A DNA stretch of 64,000 bases from Rhodovibrio salinarum DSM 9154. GTDB lineage: Bacteria; Pseudomonadota; Alphaproteobacteria; Kiloniellales; Rhodovibrionaceae. The notes below the pieces were generated by a model, which made no database searches, had not been told where the DNA came from, and saw only the letters and a list, made by a program, of their open reading frames with translations. Below are positions 27,241 through 40,602 of the stretch, piece by piece; within the stretch, counting starts at the first letter, position 1, and each line of letters opens with the position of its first letter. The stretch covers positions 3,580,693 through 3,644,692 of the forward strand of contig NZ_KI911559.1 in NCBI RefSeq assembly GCF_000515255.1, given 5' to 3'. The position numbers and the translations under genes are program-made.

Positions 27241-28491
27241 ATGCCCCAGACGAAGGACCGCAACGTCCCCGTCAACCTGCGCCAGAGCGGTGACGCGGAC
27301 GTGCGCATGCTGATCGGCACCCGCGTGCGCAAATCGCCGTTCTGGCACAAGTCGGTCGAACACGGCGTGCGGGCGGTCACGGTCTATAACCACATGTACC
27401 ATCCGCGTCTCTACTTCTCCGAGGAGCAGAACGCGCTGATGGGCGAATACTATTACCTGACCAACCATGTCACGCTGTGGAACGTCGCCGTCGAACGGCA
27501 GATCATGGTGAAGGGTCCGGACGCGCAGGACTTCGTGAACCGCGTCGTGACCCGCGACATGAAGAAGAAGATGCCGGTCGACAAGGCGCGCTACGTCATC
27601 CTGTGCGACGAGGAAGGCGGCATCATCAACGACCCGGTGCTGTTGCGCGTGGCGGAGGATGAATACTGGTTCTCGATCTCCGATTCCGACCTGTTGCTGT
27701 GGTTCAAGGGGTTGAACCAGGGCTGGAACATGGATGTCGAGCTGAAGGAGATCGACGTCTCGCCGGTCCAGGTGCAGGGACCGAAGGCGCAGGCGATGAT
27801 GCGCGACATCTTCGGCGACGAGCTCGACGGCATGAAGTACTACGAGCTCAAGCAGACGCAGATGTACGGCATGGACGTGGTGATCTCGCGCACCGGATTC
27901 TCCGGCGAAGTCGGCTACGAGATCTATCTGCGCAACGCCACCGCCGACGCCGACCGCTTCTGGGACGCGCTGGTGCGCGCCGGCGAGCCGCACGACCTGC
28001 GGGTGATCGCGCCCGGCCACATCCGGCGGATCGAGGCCGGCATCATGTCCTTCGGCCAGGATATGGATATCGAGACCAACCCCTTTGAGGCGCCGCTGGA
28101 ATGGCAGTTCGATCCCGAGAAGGAGGATTGGTATGTCGGCAAGGAAGCCCTGCACCGGATCTATCAGGATGGCGTCGAGCGCAAGCTGGTCGGCCTGGTG
28201 ATGGGCGGCCCACGCATCACCTGGTACAACTCCGACTTCTGGACGGTGCGTGATGGGTCCGACGCGGCCGACATCGGCTACGTCACCAGCGCGTTCTATT
28301 CGCCCAAGATGGAATGCAACATCGCCCTCGCGATGGTGCCGAAGGCCTACAAGGAAGCCGGCACGAAGCTGTACGTCGACCTGCCCGCCGAAGCAGGAGA
28401 CGTCGAGGCCACGGTCCACCGGGTACCGTTCTACGACCCGGACAAGCAGTTGCCCCGTGGCTCCTACCCGCAGATGCAGGCCGCGGAGTAA
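27241..28491 (+). CDS. DmdA/GcvT-family tetrahydrofolate-dependent methyltransferase (DMSP-demethylase-like)
   Basis: Aminomethyltransferase-fold protein, 416 aa. Shared with DMSP demethylase DmdA are KSPFWHKSVEHGVRAVTVYN (compare the DmdA N-terminal STPF...GVR..TVYNHM pattern), YYYLTNHVTLWNVAVERQI, GGIINDPVLLRV and FSISDSDLLLWFKG, then VQGPKAQAMM, and the C-terminal GcvT barrel. DmdA moves a methyl group from DMSP to THF. DmdA relatives also include glycine-betaine, dimethylglycine and sarcosine enzymes, so DMSP is not proven. The start has AAGGAGC upstream. It ends at a strong hairpin shared with a convergent gene. Confidence 0.75.
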   Translation: MPQTKDRNVPVNLRQSGDADVRMLIGTRVRKSPFWHKSVEHGVRAVTVYNHMYHPRLYFSEEQNALMGEYYYLTNHVTLWNVAVERQIMVKGPDAQDFVNRVVTRDMKKKMPVDKARYVILCDEEGGIINDPVLLRVAEDEYWFSISDSDLLLWFKGLNQGWNMDVELKEIDVSPVQVQGPKAQAMMRDIFGDELDGMKYYELKQTQMYGMDVVISRTGFSGEVGYEIYLRNATADADRFWDALVRAGEPHDLRVIAPGHIRRIEAGIMSFGQDMDIETNPFEAPLEWQFDPEKEDWYVGKEALHRIYQDGVERKLVGLVMGGPRITWYNSDFWTVRDGSDAADIGYVTSAFYSPKMECNIALAMVPKAYKEAGTKLYVDLPAEAGDVEATVHRVPFYDPDKQLPRGSYPQMQAAE

Positions 28492-29314: not shown

Positions 29315-30091
29315 TTAAGCCCCCTTGCGCCGCGCCGCGAAGGCACCCAGGCCAAGCAGCCCACCGCCCAGCAGCAGCAACGAGCCCGGCACCGGAACCG
29401 GGTCACCGCCGCCAACCTCCGCACGGATCTTCCGGCCGATCGCCGTCTCGAACTCCGAGAAGTCGCTCGCCAGGAGGGCGAAGGAATTCGGACCGGCAAT
29501 CACGCTGTCCTCGAACGCTTGCCGGACGAACTCGGACTCGATCGCCACCGCGTTGATCCGATCCACACCGTTTGCCAGCGCGTCATCGCGCACGCTCGCG
29601 GCCGCGCTGCCAGTACCGCCCGACCCGTCACCCGAGACGTCCATGATCAGGGTGGTGCCGTCGAAATCATTGTTGAGCAAGCTATCCAGACCAACTTGCA
29701 TGCCTTGCGCGACGTTCGTGCCGCCGCTACCCGGACGGGCGAAGTTATCCAGCGTATCGGCGAACTGCAGCACATCCGCTTCGGTCTGCAGATGGGTATA
29801 GGCGATGCCTTCCGACGCCGAAGAGGCGAAGAAGACAGCGTTCACGGCAATGCCATTGGTCGAGCCCGTGATCCTGTCGATCACGGCCTGCTGACGGAAC
29901 GCGGAGGCGTAGCCGTCCATCTGCAGATTGTATTCCGAGCCGCTGATGCTGCCGGACACGTCGATGATCAGCGACAGTTCAATATCGACGGGTGTCGGGG
30001 GCGTCTGAGCTCGTGATTCGCTCGAAAGCACAGATACACCCGCTAAAGTCGCAAACCCAAATACAGCACAACGCAGAAGTGTTTTCTTCAT
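29315..30091 (-). CDS. DUF1194 von Willebrand A-type protein with VPEP-CTERM sorting tail
   Basis: A 258-aa exported protein. A signal peptide covers residues 1-29 (ends SRAQ). The VWA/DUF1194 domain spans about 35-220: the MIDAS motif is IIDVSGSISGSEY, and a second block reads LIMDVSGDGSGG. The last 27 residues are VPVPGSLLLLGGGLLGLGAF followed by AARRKGA: the V-P-x-P-G motif, a membrane segment and a basic end, that is a VPEP-CTERM sorting signal read by exosortase/archaeosortase-type enzymes. GGGAGGG precedes the ATG. No exosortase gene is in this window. Function unknown; VWA domains usually bind protein partners through a metal ion. Confidence 0.88.
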   Translation of the reverse strand: MKKTLLRCAVFGFATLAGVSVLSSESRAQTPPTPVDIELSLIIDVSGSISGSEYNLQMDGYASAFRQQAVIDRITGSTNGIAVNAVFFASSASEGIAYTHLQTEADVLQFADTLDNFARPGSGGTNVAQGMQVGLDSLLNNDFDGTTLIMDVSGDGSGGTGSAAASVRDDALANGVDRINAVAIESEFVRQAFEDSVIAGPNSFALLASDFSEFETAIGRKIRAEVGGGDPVPVPGSLLLLGGGLLGLGAFAARRKGA

Positions 30092-31623: not shown

Positions 31624-32604
31624 CTATCCCCACAGCCCGGCGCTGGGCGGATGGATGAAGCTGCCTTCGAAGGTGAGGCCGCCGTCCCGATCCTTCGCCA
31701 ACAATAACGGCCCGTCGAGGTCGACGATCTCGACCTCCTGACCAAGCAGGACCGCCGGCGCCATGGCAAGCGAGGTGGCCAGCATGCACCCGACCATGAC
31801 CGCGAAGCCGGCGGCCTCCGCCTCCGCCTTGAGCGCCAGCGCCTCGGTCAAGCCGCCGGTCTTATCCAGCTTGATGTTGACCATGTCGTACTTGCCGGCG
31901 AGCGCGTCCAGGCTGGCGCGGTCGTGGCAGGATTCGTCCGCGCACACCGGCACCGGACGGACGATCCCGGCCAGCCCCTCGTCGTCGGCCGCGGGCAGTG
32001 GCTGCTCGATCATGTCGACGCCCAGATCGCGCAACTCTTCCGCCAGGTTGCGGTACTGGTCGGCGGTCCAGCCCTCGTTCGCATCGACGATCAGCCGGGC
32101 GTCGGGCGCGTTGCTGCGCACCGCGGCGACACGGTCCAGATCGTCCGGACCGGACAGCTTGAGCTTCAGTAGCGGCCGCTCGGCGTTGTCCTTGGCGCTG
32201 ACGGCCATCCGCGCCGGCGTATCCAGCGACAGGGTATAGGCAGTCGGCACCGGCTGCGGCTCCGACAGGCCGGCCAGTTCCCAGACCCGCTTGCCGGCCT
32301 GCTTCGCCTCCAGGTCCCAGAACGCGCAATCGAGTGCGTTGCGCGCCGCCCCGGCGGGCAGACGGTCCTGCAAGGCGTGGCGGTCGAGACCCTGGGCCAG
32401 CGCATCGCGCAGGCCTTCGATCTCCTGAATCACGCCGTCGACCGTCTCGTCGTAGCGGGGATAGGGGACGCATTCGCCCCGGCCGGTGTGCGTGCCGTCG
32501 GAGAGTCCGACGACCACCACCTCCGCCGTGGTGCGGCTGCCCCGAGAGATCGTGAAGGCCCCCCGGATCGGCCAGCTTTCGCGCGCGACGCTCAACTCCA
32601 CCAT
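31624..32604 (-). CDS. dgcA: Enolase-superfamily racemase/epimerase, DgcA-like (N-acetyl-D-glutamate racemase or Ala-Glu dipeptide epimerase)
   Basis: Muconate-lactonising subgroup enzyme, 326 aa, of the dipeptide-epimerase family. The catalytic lysine pair lies in LLKLKLSG and IKLDKTGGL, and metal ligands in VDANEGW, IEQPLP and CADES. By itself it could be an L-Ala-D/L-Glu epimerase. The immediate upstream partner is a DUF1611/DgcN gene 18 bases away; the DgcN-DgcA pair is known to convert D-glutamate through N-acetyl-D-Glu to N-acetyl-L-Glu, which makes the racemase role more likely. Cytoplasmic. Confidence 0.82.
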   Translation of the reverse strand: MVELSVARESWPIRGAFTISRGSRTTAEVVVVGLSDGTHTGRGECVPYPRYDETVDGVIQEIEGLRDALAQGLDRHALQDRLPAGAARNALDCAFWDLEAKQAGKRVWELAGLSEPQPVPTAYTLSLDTPARMAVSAKDNAERPLLKLKLSGPDDLDRVAAVRSNAPDARLIVDANEGWTADQYRNLAEELRDLGVDMIEQPLPAADDEGLAGIVRPVPVCADESCHDRASLDALAGKYDMVNIKLDKTGGLTEALALKAEAEAAGFAVMVGCMLATSLAMAPAVLLGQEVEIVDLDGPLLLAKDRDGGLTFEGSFIHPPSAGLWG

Positions 32605-32622
32605 GCCGTCTGCCGCCCCCTT

Positions 32623-33624
32623 TTAAGTCAACTGGGCGACGATGCGCGCCACACCGTCGCGCACCGGATCGACCGTCGGCAGGCCCAGGCGCTGTTCGAT
32701 CTCCTGCAGGCAGGCCTTGGCGGCGTCCGGGTCGAGGCCGCTGGTGTTGACCGCGACGCCGACCGTCCGGGCGTTCGGGTTGGTCAACTGGGCCACTAGC
32801 TCATTTTGCTGCAAGCAGGTCTCCAAGTCGGGCAGGGCATAGTCCGGTAGGCCGCGCATGTGGGTACGCGTCGGCTCGTGGCAGAGCACCAGCGCGTCCG
32901 GCTGGCTGCCGTGCAGCAGGCCGGTAGACACCCCGGCGAAGGACGCGTGGAACAGCGAGCCCTGCCCCTCGACGACGTCCCAGTGATCCTCATCGTTCGC
33001 CGGGGTCAGCCACTCGGTCGCCCCGGAGATGAAGTCCGCGATCACCGCGTCGACCGAGACGCCGTCGCCCGCGATGAAGATGCCGGTCTGACCCGTTGCG
33101 CGGAAATCCGCCTTCATGCCGCGCTTGTGCATCTCCGCCTCGATCGCGAGGGAGGTGTACATCTTGCCCACCGAGCAGTCGGTGCCGACGGTCAATACCC
33201 GCCTGCCCGGACGCTTCTTGCCGTCGGCAACCCCGAAATCACGCGTGGGGTGGCGCACGTCCAGCATCTGCCGGCCGTTGCGCTCCGCCGCTTTGCGCAG
33301 GCGTTCGACGTCGTTCAGCTTCTTGTGCAGGCCGGAGGCGAGGTCCATGCCGAGGTCCATCGCCCGTTCCAGCGCGTCGGTCCAGGCTTCCGAGATCACG
33401 CCACCGCGATTGGCGACGCCGACGATCACGGTTCGGCAGCCGGCTTTGGCCGCCTCCTCGATCGACAGGTCCTTCAAGCCCAGGTCGGCCTTGCAGCCAT
33501 CCATCCGGAACTGCCCCAGACACCAGTCCGGGCGCCAGTGCGCCACGCCCTGCGCGGTCTTCGCGGCCAGTTGGTCGGGCGCGTCGCCCAGGAACATGAG
33601 ATAGGGATGCTCGATGGCTGCCAT
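32623..33624 (-). CDS. dgcN: DUF1611 protein, DgcN-like D-glutamate N-acetyltransferase
   Basis: A 333-aa DUF1611 protein. The N-terminal Rossmann-like half contains LGQFRMDGCKADLGLKDL and VGVANRGGVISEAW. The C-terminal half has a P-loop-like TVGTDCSVGKMYTSLAI and the acidic VVEGQGSLFH. Characterised members (DgcN) acetylate D-glutamate. It is the first gene of a two-gene operon with the DgcA-like racemase and is divergent from a gamma-glutamyltransferase-family gene; the 146-base region between them must hold both promoters. Confidence 0.85.
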   Translation of the reverse strand: MAAIEHPYLMFLGDAPDQLAAKTAQGVAHWRPDWCLGQFRMDGCKADLGLKDLSIEEAAKAGCRTVIVGVANRGGVISEAWTDALERAMDLGMDLASGLHKKLNDVERLRKAAERNGRQMLDVRHPTRDFGVADGKKRPGRRVLTVGTDCSVGKMYTSLAIEAEMHKRGMKADFRATGQTGIFIAGDGVSVDAVIADFISGATEWLTPANDEDHWDVVEGQGSLFHASFAGVSTGLLHGSQPDALVLCHEPTRTHMRGLPDYALPDLETCLQQNELVAQLTNPNARTVGVAVNTSGLDPDAAKACLQEIEQRLGLPTVDPVRDGVARIVAQLT

Positions 33625-33770
33625 GGCTGTCGTCCTGTCCCCCGAAAGTGGTCGTGTCCGGTTCTGTCTAAAGCATGGCCGCCGTAAGCGCTACCAGCAG
33701 CGTTGGTTGCGCAGCCAGGCAAGCGCGCCGTAACGTGCGCGCTCCCGCCTGATCGCTGGAGATGACTGGC

Positions 33771-35582
33771 ATGTCGTTCACCACCCGCCCGGAGATTCGC
33801 GGCACCTTCGGGGCCGTCGCCTCGACCCACTGGCTGGCGAGTCAGACCGCCATGGCGATACTGGAACGCGGCGGCAACGCGTTCGACGCGGCGGTGGCCG
33901 GCGGCTTCGTGCTGCAGGTGGTGGAGCCGCACCTGAACGGTCCCGGCGGCGAGGTGCCGATCGCGCTCAAGCCCGCCGGCGGCGCGGTGGAAATCGTCTG
34001 CGGCCAAGGCCCTGCGCCCCGGGCAGCCACCATCCAGGCCTACCGCGACCAGGGGCTGGAGGTCGTGCCGGGCACCGGCCTACTGGCGGCGACCGTGCCG
34101 GGGGCGTTCGACGCCTGGATGCTGCTGCTGCGTGACCACGGCAGCCTGCCGCTGCGCGACGTTCTGGAGCCGGCGATCCAGTACGCACGGCACGGCTACC
34201 CGTTGGTCCCCCGAATCGCGGGAACGATCGAGACGGTGGCCGGGCTGTTCCGCGACGAATGGCCGACCAGCGCCGCCCTGTACCTGCCCGACAACCGGGT
34301 TCCGACGCCCGGCAAGCGCTTCGCCAATCCGACGCTGGCCGACACCTATGAGCGCCTGGTGCGGGAAGCGGAGGGTCAGGCCCGCGACCGGGACGACGTG
34401 ATCGAAGCCGCCCGGCACGTTTGGGCCGAGGGGTTCGTCGCGGAGGCGATCGCCGCGTTCTGCCGCACGCAGGAGGTGATGGACACCAGCGGCGCCCGTC
34501 ACGCCGGCCTGCTGGACGGCGACGATCTGGCCGCCTGGCGCGCCACCAAGGAGGCGCCGGTCGCCCGTGACTACCACGGCTGGCGGGTGCACAAGGCCGG
34601 GGCCTGGTCGCAGGGACCGGTGCTGCTGCAGCAACTGGCCCTGCTGGAGGGGGTCGACCTGGACCGGATGGCCCCGACCGGCGCCGAGTTCGTGCATACC
34701 GTGACCGAAGCCGCCAAGCTCGCCTTCGCCGACCGGGAGCTGTTCTACGGCGACCCCGACTTCGTCGACGTACCGCTGGAGACGCTGCTGTCCGACACCT
34801 ATGCCGAGGTCCGGCGCAAACTGATCGGACGCGAGGCGAGCCGCGATCTGCGCCCAGGCGATATTCCGGGCTATGGCGGCGACTTGAACCGGCTGCTGGA
34901 GCTCGCGCTCGCGCCGCCGCCGGAGCAGGCGCTGGGCGCGTTTGGCGGCGGCGAGCCGACGGTGCAGGACGACCGACCCAAGCACGGCGACCGCCAGGCC
35001 CCGGGCGACACCTGCCACATCGACGTGATCGACCGGCACGGCAACGCCGTGACGGCGACGCCGTCCGGAGGCTGGCTACAGTCCTCTCCGGTGATCCCGG
35101 ACCTCGGCTTCTGCCTGGGCACCCGCGCGCAGATGTTCTGGCTGGAAGACGGTCAGCCGGCCAGCCTGGCGCCCGGCAAGCGCCCGCGCACCACCCTGTC
35201 GGTCTCGCTCGCCACCCACGCGGACGGACGGGTGCTGGCGATCGGCACGCCGGGCGGCGACTATCAGGACCAGTGGACGCTGCACGCCTTCCTACGCCAC
35301 GTCCACGCCGGCCATAACCTGCAGGAAGCAATCGAGGCGCCCGGCTTCAAGACCGACCACATGCCCTCATCCTTTTACCCGCGCCGCGCCAAGCTGGGCA
35401 CACTCGATCTCGAAAGCCGGTTTCCGGAGGAGACCTTCGTCGAACTCGGTCGGCGCGGCCATCACATCGGCATCAGCGATCCCTGGTCGCTCGGCCGGGT
35501 CACGGCGGTCGGCACGGAAGACGGCCTGATCAAGGCCGGCGCCAACCCACGCGGCATGCAAGGGTATGCAGTCGGTCGGTAG
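33771..35582 (+). CDS. Cytoplasmic gamma-glutamyltransferase-family Ntn hydrolase
   Basis: Self-processing N-terminal-nucleophile hydrolase, 603 aa. The start is ATG 33771, nine bases after GGAG; the in-frame ATG at 33762 touches that site. The processing/nucleophile threonine is Thr414 in PGDTCHIDVIDRHGN, followed by TPSGGWLQSSPVIPDLGF; the small-subunit core has GTPGGDYQDQW. No signal peptide is seen, unlike classical periplasmic GGT. Relatives include GGT, glutathione hydrolase, cephalosporin acylase and oxamate amidohydrolase. Divergence from dgcN-dgcA suggests a gamma-glutamyl or D-Glu-containing substrate (inference). Confidence 0.85.
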   Translation: MSFTTRPEIRGTFGAVASTHWLASQTAMAILERGGNAFDAAVAGGFVLQVVEPHLNGPGGEVPIALKPAGGAVEIVCGQGPAPRAATIQAYRDQGLEVVPGTGLLAATVPGAFDAWMLLLRDHGSLPLRDVLEPAIQYARHGYPLVPRIAGTIETVAGLFRDEWPTSAALYLPDNRVPTPGKRFANPTLADTYERLVREAEGQARDRDDVIEAARHVWAEGFVAEAIAAFCRTQEVMDTSGARHAGLLDGDDLAAWRATKEAPVARDYHGWRVHKAGAWSQGPVLLQQLALLEGVDLDRMAPTGAEFVHTVTEAAKLAFADRELFYGDPDFVDVPLETLLSDTYAEVRRKLIGREASRDLRPGDIPGYGGDLNRLLELALAPPPEQALGAFGGGEPTVQDDRPKHGDRQAPGDTCHIDVIDRHGNAVTATPSGGWLQSSPVIPDLGFCLGTRAQMFWLEDGQPASLAPGKRPRTTLSVSLATHADGRVLAIGTPGGDYQDQWTLHAFLRHVHAGHNLQEAIEAPGFKTDHMPSSFYPRRAKLGTLDLESRFPEETFVELGRRGHHIGISDPWSLGRVTAVGTEDGLIKAGANPRGMQGYAVGR

Positions 35583-35664
35583 CGGCGCTTGTACGGTTCC
35601 CATTGTCCGGCGCACACTGCCATCCGAGTGGACTGACCATGCCACTGAGGGGGAATCACCAGCC

Positions 35665-36372
35665 GTGAGCGGACAGCAGGAGGGGCGTGACCGGTCGCTG
35701 GCGCGGGTCGAGATCTTCCGTGACCTGCAAGACGCCGACCGGCGACGGGTCGAGGACCGCTGCCGCTGGCGGACCTACGCGCCGCAGGAAACCGTGATCG
35801 CCCGCGAACAGGACAGCCATGAGGTGCACTTCGTCATCTGGGGCCGGGTGCGCGTGCTCGACTATGCCGCCAGCGGGCGGGAGGTTGCGTTCGACGATAT
35901 CGGCCCCGGCGGCACGGTGGGCGAACTGGCCGCGATCGACGGCGGCATGCGGTCGGCCTCGGTCGTCGCGGTCCAGCGCACCCTGACGGCCGCACTCGAT
36001 CAGCGCAGCTTTTTGAACATGCTGGCCGAGCATCCCGAGGTCAGCCTGGCCACCATGCGCCGCCTGACCCGGATGGTCCGGCAGGCGAGCGAGCGGATCA
36101 TGGATCTAAGCGCGCTCGGCGCCAACAACCGCGTCCATGCCGAAATCCTGCGCCTCGCCCGCCAGGCGGCGGGCCCGGACGCGGAAATCGCGCGCCTCTC
36201 CCCGATCCCGGTGCATTCCGAGGTGGCGAGCCGGGTTTCCACCACGCGGGAGACGGTTGCCCGCGTGTTCTCGGATCTGACGCGCGAAGGCGTGCTGCAC
36301 AAGGAACGCAACGTCCTGGTGGTCGACGACATCCCCGCGCTGGCGGATCTGGTGGCCAGCGTGCGCGGCTAG
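35665..36372 (+). CDS. Crp/Fnr-family transcriptional regulator (CRP type)
   Basis: A 235-aa regulator. The GTG at 35665 is preferred (GAGGGGGA about 10 bases upstream); an earlier ATG at 35566 overlaps the GGT-family gene. The cyclic-nucleotide-binding fold spans about 15-130; the phosphate-binding cassette reads GELAAIDGGMRSASV and keeps the Gly-Glu and Arg-Ser pair of cAMP-binding CRP. The helix-turn-helix SEVASRVSTTRETVARVF has the CRP-like RETVxR recognition helix. There is no N-terminal Cys cluster, so it is not an oxygen-sensing FNR. It probably responds to a nucleotide and may control the neighbouring glutamate genes. Confidence 0.88.
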   Translation: MSGQQEGRDRSLARVEIFRDLQDADRRRVEDRCRWRTYAPQETVIAREQDSHEVHFVIWGRVRVLDYAASGREVAFDDIGPGGTVGELAAIDGGMRSASVVAVQRTLTAALDQRSFLNMLAEHPEVSLATMRRLTRMVRQASERIMDLSALGANNRVHAEILRLARQAAGPDAEIARLSPIPVHSEVASRVSTTRETVARVFSDLTREGVLHKERNVLVVDDIPALADLVASVRG

Positions 36373-36641: not shown

Positions 36642-36755
36642 CTTGCGCGCGCCGAGCAGCCTGCGGCTTGACAGCACGCGGGCGTAGCGGGGATGACCCG
36701 GATCGCATCCAATTTTCTCGGCACGCCCCCAGCTACGAGCACGCGGTTTTCATCC

Positions 36756-37601
36756 ATGTCCGCCGATCCCAAGCCCGCCACCCACGCCTACCGCGTCACG
36801 CCCAGGGCCGACGGCCGGCAGGAACGCCGGCTGCTATCGGACAAGCTGCAAGCGCGCCTGGAGCGCCAGCTGACCGACACGATCGCCGCCGCGCTGACGC
36901 GCCTTCAGCTGATGCCAACCGGCGGTTCGCGCGAGCTGGCTGCCTGGATCGGCGAGTTCTTTCGCCTCCACGCCGACAGCCCGGCCGGCGAGAATCCGGG
37001 CGGCAGCGGGGTGAACGATTCGCTCTGGCTGTTCGTGATCGCCCGTGCGCTCGCCCCCAACCGAATCATCGAGAGCGGCACCCACCGCGGCCACAGCGCC
37101 TGGATCTTCCACCGCGCCTGCCCCGAAACGCCGATCGATACCTTCGATGTCGACACGGGCAAGCTGACCTGGTCCCACGAGAAGCTGCGCGCGCACCAGG
37201 GCGACTGGACGGCGACGATCGGTTCAGACCCGGCGAACGCTGAAGCGCTCGTGTTCTTCGACGACCACATCAATCACGCCCGTCGCGTGGCGGAGGCGCA
37301 CGCACGCGGCTTCCGCTGGCTCCTGGTCGACGACAACTTCGCCGCCACTCAAGTGCATGCCACCGGCGGCCCGCCCTTGCCCAGCTTGGCCATGCTGTTC
37401 GATCCCGAGGTCGTCCCCGGCGACGAGATCGCTTGGTCCCGCAATGGCAAGAACTACGCCTGGACCTATACGCAAGAGGCCGAGTACGGCGCCCGCGAGC
37501 TGATCGAAAGCTATACGCCACTGCCCGAACTGGGGGAGATCACCCGATTCCCGACCGGCTCCGGCTTGTCGCTGGTCCGCCTCGCCGCGCCGCGCGCCTA
37601 A
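36756..37601 (+). CDS. Class I methyltransferase-like protein, hypothetical
   Basis: A 281-aa protein starting at ATG 36756 (MSADPKPATHAYRVT); an ATG at 36693 would add a non-descript extension. The centre resembles a Rossmann methyltransferase or cephalosporin-hydroxylase-type fold: RIIESGTHRGHSAWIF looks like motif I, then IDTFDVDTGKL, and LVFFDDHINHARRVAEAHAR followed by RWLLVDDN. I cannot name the substrate. It sits 16 bases before the HD-hydrolase gene, suggesting an operon. No clear ribosome-binding site is seen. Confidence 0.65.
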   Translation: MSADPKPATHAYRVTPRADGRQERRLLSDKLQARLERQLTDTIAAALTRLQLMPTGGSRELAAWIGEFFRLHADSPAGENPGGSGVNDSLWLFVIARALAPNRIIESGTHRGHSAWIFHRACPETPIDTFDVDTGKLTWSHEKLRAHQGDWTATIGSDPANAEALVFFDDHINHARRVAEAHARGFRWLLVDDNFAATQVHATGGPPLPSLAMLFDPEVVPGDEIAWSRNGKNYAWTYTQEAEYGARELIESYTPLPELGEITRFPTGSGLSLVRLAAPRA

Positions 37602-38349: not shown

Positions 38350-38466
38350 GTACGGCGCACAGGGCATGCAGATCATCGCGCCACGTGTCGGGAGTTGCCC
38401 GCTAGTCCCGCCCTGCGGCGTTCGTTACAGTCCGCGCGACCCCGGACCCGGGAGGAGTTCACCCCC

Positions 38467-39327
38467 TTGAGCGCGATCGAAACGCCCTCCGGCAAAGGTA
38501 GCGGCGACGAGAACTTTCCGGTCGCCTCGCGCCTGATCGCCCCCGGGCTGCGCCCCCACGTGATGGCGTACTACGCTTTCGCCCGCGCCGCCGACGACAT
38601 CGCCGATAACCCAACGCTGGCCCCGGACGACAAGATCGCCCGGCTGGATCGGCTAGGCGCGGCCCTGAACGGGGAAGCTGGCGGCTATGCCGTGCCAGTC
38701 GCCCAGCGCTTGCGCGCAAGCCTGCTGGAAACCGGCGTACCGCTTGCCGACGCTTTGGACCTGCTGACGGCGTTCAAGCAGGACGCGGTCAAGACTCGCT
38801 ACGCCGACTGGGAGGAATTGCTAGGCTATTGTGTGAACTCCGCCAATCCGGTGGGCCGCTTCCTGCTCGATCTGCACGGCGAGCCGGCAGCCGCCCGCCC
38901 GCTCTCCGATGCGCTGTGCACGGCGCTGCAGATCCTCAACCACCTGCAGGATCTGGGCGACGACTACCGCCGGTTGGACCGCGTCTACCTGCCGGAAAGC
39001 TGGCTGGCACACGAAGGGATCGGTGTCGACGCGCTGGCAGGCAGCCAATCGGACCTGCGGCTGCGCCGGGTAATCGACCGGGCGCTGGACGGCGTGGCGG
39101 CACTGCTGCCGGCGGCGCGCGCGCTGCCCGATCGCCTGACCGACCGACGGATGGCGATGGAAGCGGGGGCGATCGCCGCGCTGGCGCGCGCGCTGCACGC
39201 GCGTCTGAGCCGGCAGGACCCACTGGCCGTCCGGGTCGAGCTGTCCAAGCCGGCCAAACTATGGATCGCCGGGAGGGGGGCCCTCGCGGCGGCGTGGCGG
39301 CCAACCCCGGCTTCGGAAACGGCGTGA
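38467..39327 (+). CDS. hpnC: Presqualene/hydroxysqualene-pathway synthase HpnC
   Basis: Trans-isoprenyl-diphosphate synthase of the bacterial HpnCDE squalene route, which feeds hopanoids. HpnC converts presqualene diphosphate to hydroxysqualene. Asp-rich motifs are ARAADDIADN and ILNHLQDLGDDYRRLDR, and FKQDAVKTRYADWEELLGYC plus SANPVGRFLLDLHGE are typical of HpnC rather than HpnD. The start is most likely the TTG at 38467, nine bases after a strong GGAGGAG, giving 286 aa. hpnE follows 15 bases later; hpnD is not between them or elsewhere in the window. Confidence 0.88.
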   Translation: MSAIETPSGKGSGDENFPVASRLIAPGLRPHVMAYYAFARAADDIADNPTLAPDDKIARLDRLGAALNGEAGGYAVPVAQRLRASLLETGVPLADALDLLTAFKQDAVKTRYADWEELLGYCVNSANPVGRFLLDLHGEPAAARPLSDALCTALQILNHLQDLGDDYRRLDRVYLPESWLAHEGIGVDALAGSQSDLRLRRVIDRALDGVAALLPAARALPDRLTDRRMAMEAGAIAALARALHARLSRQDPLAVRVELSKPAKLWIAGRGALAAAWRPTPASETA

Positions 39328-39342
39328 GGTCCGCATAAGCCG

Positions 39343-40602
39343 ATGGCGCGCACGCATGTAATCGGAGCCGGCATGGCGGGGCTCGCCTGCGCAGTGCGCC
39401 TCGCGCGCGCCGGCGAAGCGGTCACGCTTTACGACGCCGCCCCACAGGCCGGCGGACGCTGCCGCTCGCTGTACGACCCGCAACTCGAACGCTGGATCGA
39501 CAACGGCAATCACCTGCTGTTGAGCGCGAACCCGAACGCGCGCGCCTTCCTGCGCGCAACCGGCGCGGAACACCACCTGAGCGCCCCGCCCAACGCCGCC
39601 TTCCCGTTCGTCGACCTGAAAACCGGGGAGCGCTGGACGGTCCGCCCGAACGACGGCCGCCTGCCCTGGTGGCTGTGGGTCCCAAGCCGGCGGGTGAAGG
39701 GTGCGAGCGCGCTCGACCATCTGCGCGGCGCCGGCATCGCCTTCGCGCGCGACGGCGAGACGGTGGCCGAGCGCCTGAGCCGGCCGGGCCACGCGATCTG
39801 GGAACGGTTGTGGAAACCCCTCGCCGTCTCGATCCTGAACACCGAACCGGAAGCCGCCGATGCGCGGCTGCTGCGCCGGGTGATTCTGGACTCATTCGCC
39901 AAGGGCGGGCGCTATTCCCGGCCGCTGGTGGCGATCCAGTCGCTGTCCGACACCTTCGTCGACCCGGCGCTCGCGACGCTGGATGTCTATGGGGCCGATG
40001 TGCGGCTGGGCTGGCGGCTGCGCGATCTGGGCGGCGACGACGGCGGCATCACCGGTCTCGACTTCGCGCAGGGCTACGAGCCGGTTGCGCCGGACGACCG
40101 CGTGATCCTGGCCGTGCCGGCCCCGGTCGCCCGGCAGCTGATCCCCGGGCTCACCGCGCCCACGGACACGCGGCCGATCGTCAACGCCCACATCCGCCTA
40201 CCCCACCGCGCACGACTGGCGGAGGGCATCCCGTTCCTGGGGCTGGTCGGCGGCACCGCGGAGTGGGTCTTCCTGCGCAATGACGTCGCCAGCGTCACCG
40301 TCTCCGCGGCGACCCAACTGGCCGACCGTTCGCCTTCCGAGATTGCGGAAATCCTGTGGCCCGACGTCGCCAAGGCGCTCGCCCTCGACCCCCGGCATCA
40401 GCCACCGATGCGGGTGATCAAGGAACGCCGCGCCACCTTCGCCCAGACGCCCGCGGCCGTGCGTCAACGCCCGCCGGCCAAGACCCCGATCCCGAACCTG
40501 CTGCTGGCCGGCGACTGGACCGACACCGGCCTGCCGGCGACGATCGAGGGCGCCACTACCAGCGGCCACACCGCGGCCGATCTGGTGCTGAAGGCGCGGT
40601 AG
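39343..40602 (+). CDS. hpnE: Hydroxysqualene dehydroxylase HpnE
   Basis: FAD-dependent enzyme (419 aa) that reduces hydroxysqualene to squalene. The N-terminal dinucleotide-binding motif is VIGAGMAGLACAVRLARAG, followed by the phytoene-desaturase-like AGGRCRSLYDP and WIDNGNHLLLSAN, and the C-terminal FAD motif LLLAGDWTDTGLPATIEGA. It is co-directional with hpnC with a 15-base gap and convergent with the DapA-family gene. Confidence 0.93.
   Translation: MARTHVIGAGMAGLACAVRLARAGEAVTLYDAAPQAGGRCRSLYDPQLERWIDNGNHLLLSANPNARAFLRATGAEHHLSAPPNAAFPFVDLKTGERWTVRPNDGRLPWWLWVPSRRVKGASALDHLRGAGIAFARDGETVAERLSRPGHAIWERLWKPLAVSILNTEPEAADARLLRRVILDSFAKGGRYSRPLVAIQSLSDTFVDPALATLDVYGADVRLGWRLRDLGGDDGGITGLDFAQGYEPVAPDDRVILAVPAPVARQLIPGLTAPTDTRPIVNAHIRLPHRARLAEGIPFLGLVGGTAEWVFLRNDVASVTVSAATQLADRSPSEIAEILWPDVAKALALDPRHQPPMRVIKERRATFAQTPAAVRQRPPAKTPIPNLLLAGDWTDTGLPATIEGATTSGHTAADLVLKAR

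Follow-up and report, generated by a model that had tools for sequence, protein, structure and literature searches.

What does a hydrolase of the gamma-glutamyltransferase (GGT) superfamily do opposite an operon for the conversion of D-glutamate (D-Glu)? This question is raised by a locus of Rhodovibrio salinarum DSM 9154, in which dgcA and dgcN, an adjacent, tight pair on one strand, diverge from the gene of an N-terminal-nucleophile (Ntn) hydrolase, which is followed by a gene for a CRP-like regulator. The window analysed here is a stretch of 64,000 nucleotides, which corresponds to positions 3580693-3644692 of the single-contig genome (4,176,524 bases). The reading that we favour, with a rough probability of 0.5, is that the dgcNA operon is paired divergently with a cytoplasmic LmbA2991-type hydrolase, which acts on an oxalyl-like, non-gamma-glutamyl acyl substrate. 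It builds on family assignments, residue replacements and a conserved divergent pairing, all of which were taken from the sequence. The four open reading frames (ORFs) of a preliminary description of the locus were found at the coordinates given there, and the features are as follows.

31624-32604, minus strand: dgcA, N-acetyl-D-Glu racemase of the enolase superfamily (326 residues; MR_MLE_N/C; NF042940, 517.8 bits, cut-off 400), with KxK at residues 147-149 and DLDG at 295
32623-33624, minus strand: dgcN, DUF1611 N-acetyltransferase (333 residues; DUF1611_N and DUF1611; NF041892, 549.7 bits, cut-off 480)
33625-33761: head-to-head intergenic region of 137 bp, from the ORF coordinates
33762-35582, plus strand: LmbA2991-type Ntn hydrolase of the GGT superfamily, non-canonical (606 residues; PF01019, E 1.2e-106)
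34005-34007, plus strand: codon of hydrolase Gln82, aligned with Arg114 of E. coli GGT
35007-35012, plus strand: codons of hydrolase Asp416-Thr417, predicted self-cleavage site and nucleophile (D420-T421 in LmbA2991)
35124-35126, plus strand: codon of hydrolase Arg455, at the place of Gln430 of E. coli GGT (Arg in HpxW, too)
35253-35276, plus strand: hydrolase GGDYQDQW, residues 498-505, with the signature GG[DE]xQxQW from the orthologue alignment
35566-36372, plus strand: CRP/FNR-type regulator (cNMP_binding and HTH_Crp_2), starting at ATG 35566, with a 17-nt overlap with the hydrolase gene, or at GTG 35665

Family and active site of the hydrolase

As far as sequence and predicted structure go, the hydrolase is closest to LmbA2991 over its whole length and not to a canonical GGT. 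The solved relatives closest by sequence are 6j3a and 6j3i (617 residues; E 2.4e-199), whose entry titles name LmbA2991HD and LmbA2991T421A; 6j3a carries Asp420-Thr421 and TCHLDVVDRW, which matches the description of LmbA2991 in PMC5519988. The AlphaFold model of the hydrolase (mean pLDDT 89.2) matches 6j3i_B across 572 residues with a Z score of 55.9, a root-mean-square deviation of 1.4 and 58% identity. For 6j3a the Z score is 55.4 and the identity 57%, and the next ranks are taken by 2nlz (Z 45.5) and by 2e0w, the GGT of E. coli (Z 41.2); the identity to LmbA2991 according to Foldseek is 54%. HpxW (5hft) ranks far under 6j3a among the relatives of the hydrolase and is not the nearest one. 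According to PMC5519988, LmbA2991 hydrolyses a C-C bond under release of oxalate, for which an oxalyl-Thr intermediate was proposed, and cleaves itself at D420-T421; its intrinsic role was left unclear by the authors.

The preliminary description had regarded the hydrolase as a signal-less GGT that frees Glu from gamma-glutamyl compounds. Indeed, inspection by eye reveals no hydrophobic signal peptide in its N-terminal part. The proposed activity is not supported: the top NCBIfam match is the gamma-glutamyltransferase model, and the score (TIGR00066, 248.7 bits) lies under the cut-off of 357.85. Because the best match of such a protein is a GGT model, albeit below the cut-off, mislabelling of LmbA2991-type genes is likely. 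In the alignment, R114, N411, Q430, D433, S462 and S463 of E. coli GGT correspond to Q, G, R, M, T and T, so that the glutamyl contacts are replaced, and the Thr nucleophile (T417) and Gly-Gly (G498-G499) are retained. In contrast, a GGT encoded elsewhere in the same genome (L001), which has a lipoprotein-like N-terminus, keeps most of the contacts (R114, Q430, D433, S462 and S463, with E at N411). According to a review (PMC8062742), the R114L and R114D variants of E. coli GGT have no detectable activity, and D433N gains cephalosporin-acylase activity.

Across 144 orthologue loci (147 rows minus L161, L204 and L205, which are likely duplicates), T417, R455, T478, Q502, Q504 and W505 are kept in all orthologues and Q82 in 143. 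The Asp416-Thr417 pair, between which cleavage is predicted, is present in 144 of 144, and residues 498-505 are invariant except for D/E at 500.

Several of these residues recur in HpxW, which is reported to convert oxamate to oxalate and ammonium (PMC5270733). Its small subunit (5hft_B, phmmer) shares Arg455, Thr478-Leu479 and GGDxQxQ with the hydrolase, and the place of R114 is taken by Ser in HpxW, as read via L002. The latter is a second GGT-family gene of the genome, located outside the window (G000:C1:3543980-3545464) and near HpxW in sequence (5hft_A, E 4.1e-94). The features shared with the small subunit may be what defines HpxW, and two characterised proteins with this pattern, LmbA2991 and HpxW, release oxalate. 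We infer that the shared residues might hold the oxalyl carboxylate, and an oxalyl-type or N-blocked acyl substrate would fit better than a gamma-glutamyl one.

The D-glutamate pair

By its sequence models, the D-glutamate half of the locus is a known pathway. The earlier assignment to DgcN-DgcA holds, since both proteins lie clearly above the cut-offs of the curated models listed above, and the best solved relative of DgcN is 7xrj (E 2e-127). The pathway, which was reportedly founded by the work of Yu et al. 2023, would lead from D-Glu via N-acetyl-D-Glu to N-acetyl-L-Glu. Two later papers, PMC12363236 and PMC10845958, cite or make use of this route of D-glutamate catabolism.

It could be argued that the enolase-superfamily gene encodes an L-Ala-D/L-Glu epimerase of murein-peptide recycling, and that the module treats murein dipeptides and not N-acetyl-Glu. 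The protein also passes the corresponding model, although narrowly (NF011708, 359.2 bits, cut-off 343), its second-best solved relative is the E. coli epimerase (1jpd), and DLDG at residue 295 contains the DxD that marks dipeptide epimerases. However, the DgcA model fits far better, and in each of the 26 fetched loci that contain dgcN a dgcA match follows it (tblastn; in L086 after a gap of about 0.7 kb). Since four related dgcN-linked proteins pass the DgcA model alone and fail NF011708, we keep the window racemase as DgcA and consider the epimerase very improbable. An enolase-superfamily gene located 3' of the hydrolase gene in L072 was rejected as DgcA (79.6 bits, cut-off 400).

Conservation and genomic settings

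The preliminary description had pointed to conservation of the divergent pair as a means of judging the module, and the pair is conserved across alphaproteobacteria. We sampled 240 alphaproteobacterial genomes and counted as orthologues proteins with at least 53% identity, which leaves out a 38% match in G122. The hydrolase orthologue is present in 46 genomes, dgcN in 61 and both genes in 32. In 17 of these 32, dgcN and the hydrolase gene lie on one contig, and in 12 (12 of the 240) they are at most 2 kb apart; all 12 close pairs are divergent, and they are spread over 12 different family codes. A further divergent pair in G107 is separated by 8.3 kb. Among the 144 orthologue loci, dgcN is nearby in 15, in 14 of them within 2 kb; for the named genomes it is nearby in three of 80 loci (L161, L162 and L171). 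In a tree that FastTree built from 145 rows, with rough supports, the label "dgc-linked" needs nine changes; dgc linkage is either an old arrangement that was often lost or one that formed repeatedly.

Our own gene calling overlooked genes where the GC content is high, and these counts are therefore based on tblastn and genome searches. For those fetched stretches that are short contigs, the absence of a neighbour is weak evidence. One neighbour-clustering step, and no other, excluded twelve Bradyrhizobium loci.

The CRP-type regulator, which had been included in the module before, did not withstand this comparison. A homologue (at least 90 bits) lies near only three of the 144 loci, that of the window included, and at differing positions; L173 holds a weaker match (30%). 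The gene is part of the window locus only and no conserved part of the module. No motif common to nine divergent dgcN/hydrolase promoter regions was evident by eye, and no statistical motif search was made. A MATE exporter gene was likewise rejected as a component, being located directly 3' in 11 of 144 loci, seven of them dgc-linked, with none called in the window; so was DUF924, which lies between dgcN and the hydrolase gene in two loci only.

The hydrolase gene also occurs in other settings. DUF1028 (PF06267) is found near 40 of the 144 orthologue loci, in 38 cases no more than 200 bp downstream and in the same orientation; in L100, L152, L163 and others it stands directly 3' of the hydrolase gene, often together with oligopeptide ABC transporter genes. 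DUF1028 is a second unexplained conserved partner of the LmbA2991-type hydrolase. An SBP_bac_5 binding protein is encoded near 39 loci, a gene of the N-formylglutamate amidohydrolase family (PF05013) near nine and an aspartate-dehydrogenase-family gene near seven. Five of these seven (L039, L101, L106, L114 and L115) also hold a closely related TctC-type binding protein, and the hydrolase gene is located there near tripartite tricarboxylate transporter genes; dgcN-dgcA is present as well in L039, and in L057, which has the aspartate dehydrogenase alone. None of the 144 loci combines dgcN with DUF1028 or SBP_bac_5, two combine it with aspartate dehydrogenase and five with PF05013. The genome of R. 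salinarum contains five PF05013 genes, none within the window. Beyond the alphaproteobacteria, 20 of 198 sampled actinobacterial genomes have a hydrolase orthologue, and dgcN is nearby in none of 20 fetched actinobacterial loci (19 genomes; G248 not included). A theme shared by these settings would be acidic amino acids, together with peptides or carboxylates that are taken up by transporters.

Around the locus, the window encodes an aminomethyltransferase-like protein of the GcvT family (27241-28491, plus strand) and a DUF1194/VWA protein that bears a PEP-CTERM sorting signal (29315-30091, minus strand). An ORF of 302 residues located 3' of the CRP-like gene (36693-37601, plus strand) has no Pfam match at E up to 0.001 and no NCBIfam match. 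Two ORFs at 38395-40602 (plus strand) resemble, by eye, HpnC/D and HpnE, and may be squalene/hopanoid synthesis genes.

Proposed role and relation to known systems

In the reading that we favour, self-cleavage of the hydrolase most likely takes place between Asp416 and Thr417, after which Thr417 serves as nucleophile. The target is probably an acyl group with a carboxylate and no free alpha-amino group, most likely an oxalyl-like and not a gamma-glutamyl one, and the hydrolase would supply or clear a metabolite tied to acidic amino acids, which meets the D-Glu route. Co-regulation of the two divergent units, the acyl specificity and the place of the hydrolase in the pathway are what we infer. 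As an extension with a rather low probability, LmbA2991-type enzymes could be housekeeping hydrolases of oxalyl- or N-acyl-acidic amino acids, which together with DgcN-DgcA would make up an undescribed salvage route that opens an N-blocked D-Glu compound. The glutamyl amino group would be blocked by an oxalyl group, or by acylation of the kind found in murein peptides. If true, this would explain the loss of Asp433, which binds the alpha-amino group, and give the LmbA2991 family a physiological role.

Several observations weigh against the favoured reading. The gene dgcN is missing from 14 of the 46 genomes with the hydrolase, the close pair occurs in just 12 of the 32 genomes holding both genes, and the co-occurrence (Fisher p 1e-12) carries no correction for relatedness or genome size. 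At the catalytic site, no residue tells dgc-linked orthologues from other ones, including those linked to DUF1028 or Opp genes. The argument from residue replacement is limited, because the R109S variant of BlGGT retains 85% activity and some natural GGTs have Ser at Arg114 and His-Thr at the Ser pair, as stated in the review (PMC8062742). The residue pattern need not mean oxalyl specificity either, since 2nlz, titled cephalosporin acylase, has a partly similar one and the same review treats the Ser and His-Thr proteins as GGTs. Finally, the C-C substrate need not be native, because LmbA2991 is only about 37% as efficient on it as Ant6 (PMC5519988).

Two alternatives have to be weighed against this background. 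The hydrolase could have no joint function with DgcN-DgcA and serve unrelated amide or peptide catabolism, the divergent pair being an old arrangement kept by inertia. Such a view would account for the 129 of 144 orthologue loci without dgcN nearby, for DUF1028 and SBP_bac_5 settings that are commoner than dgcN, and for the 20 of 32 two-gene genomes in which the genes are not within 2 kb (in 15 they lie on different contigs, some of them of drafts). Against it stand the uniform divergence of the close pairs across their family codes and the nine changes of the dgc-linked label; moreover, among the neighbour clusters listed, neither the ferrochelatase-like ORF nor other window neighbours recur in this way. 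On balance we hold the lack of a joint function to be somewhat unlikely. Less likely still is a cytoplasmic gamma-glutamyl hydrolase acting on gamma-glutamyl compounds or murein fragments, from which it would release (D-)Glu for conversion by DgcN-DgcA. The GGT superfamily fold with its Thr nucleophile, the conserved pairing with D-Glu genes, the genes for oligopeptide-type transporters in the vicinity of 39 of 144 orthologues and the Ser-bearing GGTs and active R109S variant mentioned above are consistent with it. The TIGR00066 score and the replaced contacts, most of which the other GGT of the genome keeps, point away from it, as does the statement, by the group that described LmbA2991, that LmbA and Ant6 are without gamma-glutamyl transfer or hydrolysis activity (PMC6085292), a clause in which LmbA2991 is not named.

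Among the publications listed in our searches, none joins DgcN/DUF1611 with an LmbA-type hydrolase in its title or the opening of its abstract; the locus combines a known pathway with a partner that is conserved and apparently undescribed. Its recurrence in bacteria that are only distantly related makes the pairing a testable clue to the role of an unexplained enzyme family. The pairings with D-glutamate genes, and those with transporters of the oligopeptide or tricarboxylate type, narrow the search for the substrate to a small testable set, and they warn against taking LmbA2991-type genes for glutathione enzymes.

Among characterised proteins, LmbA2991 of Streptomyces lincolnensis (6j3a, 6j3i) is 54-58% identical to the window hydrolase, has the Asp-Thr cleavage site as well and agrees with it in the residues that replace the GGT contacts; it differs in coming from an actinobacterium, a group in which dgcN was nearby in none of the 20 fetched loci. 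The oxamate amidohydrolase HpxW (5hft) is similar in the Arg at the place of Gln430, the Thr-Leu, GGDxQxQ and the lack of Arg114, but is only about 31% identical over 292 large-chain residues, and L002 is the closer HpxW relative of the genome. The canonical GGT of E. coli (2e0w) has the Ntn fold, the Thr nucleophile and Gly-Gly in common with the window hydrolase, whereas the latter has replaced glutamyl contacts, a score under the model cut-off and no visible signal peptide. With the DgcN-DgcA pathway, the locus shares passage of both curated models and the adjacent position of dgcN and dgcA on one strand, and it differs by the divergent pairing with an LmbA2991-type hydrolase.

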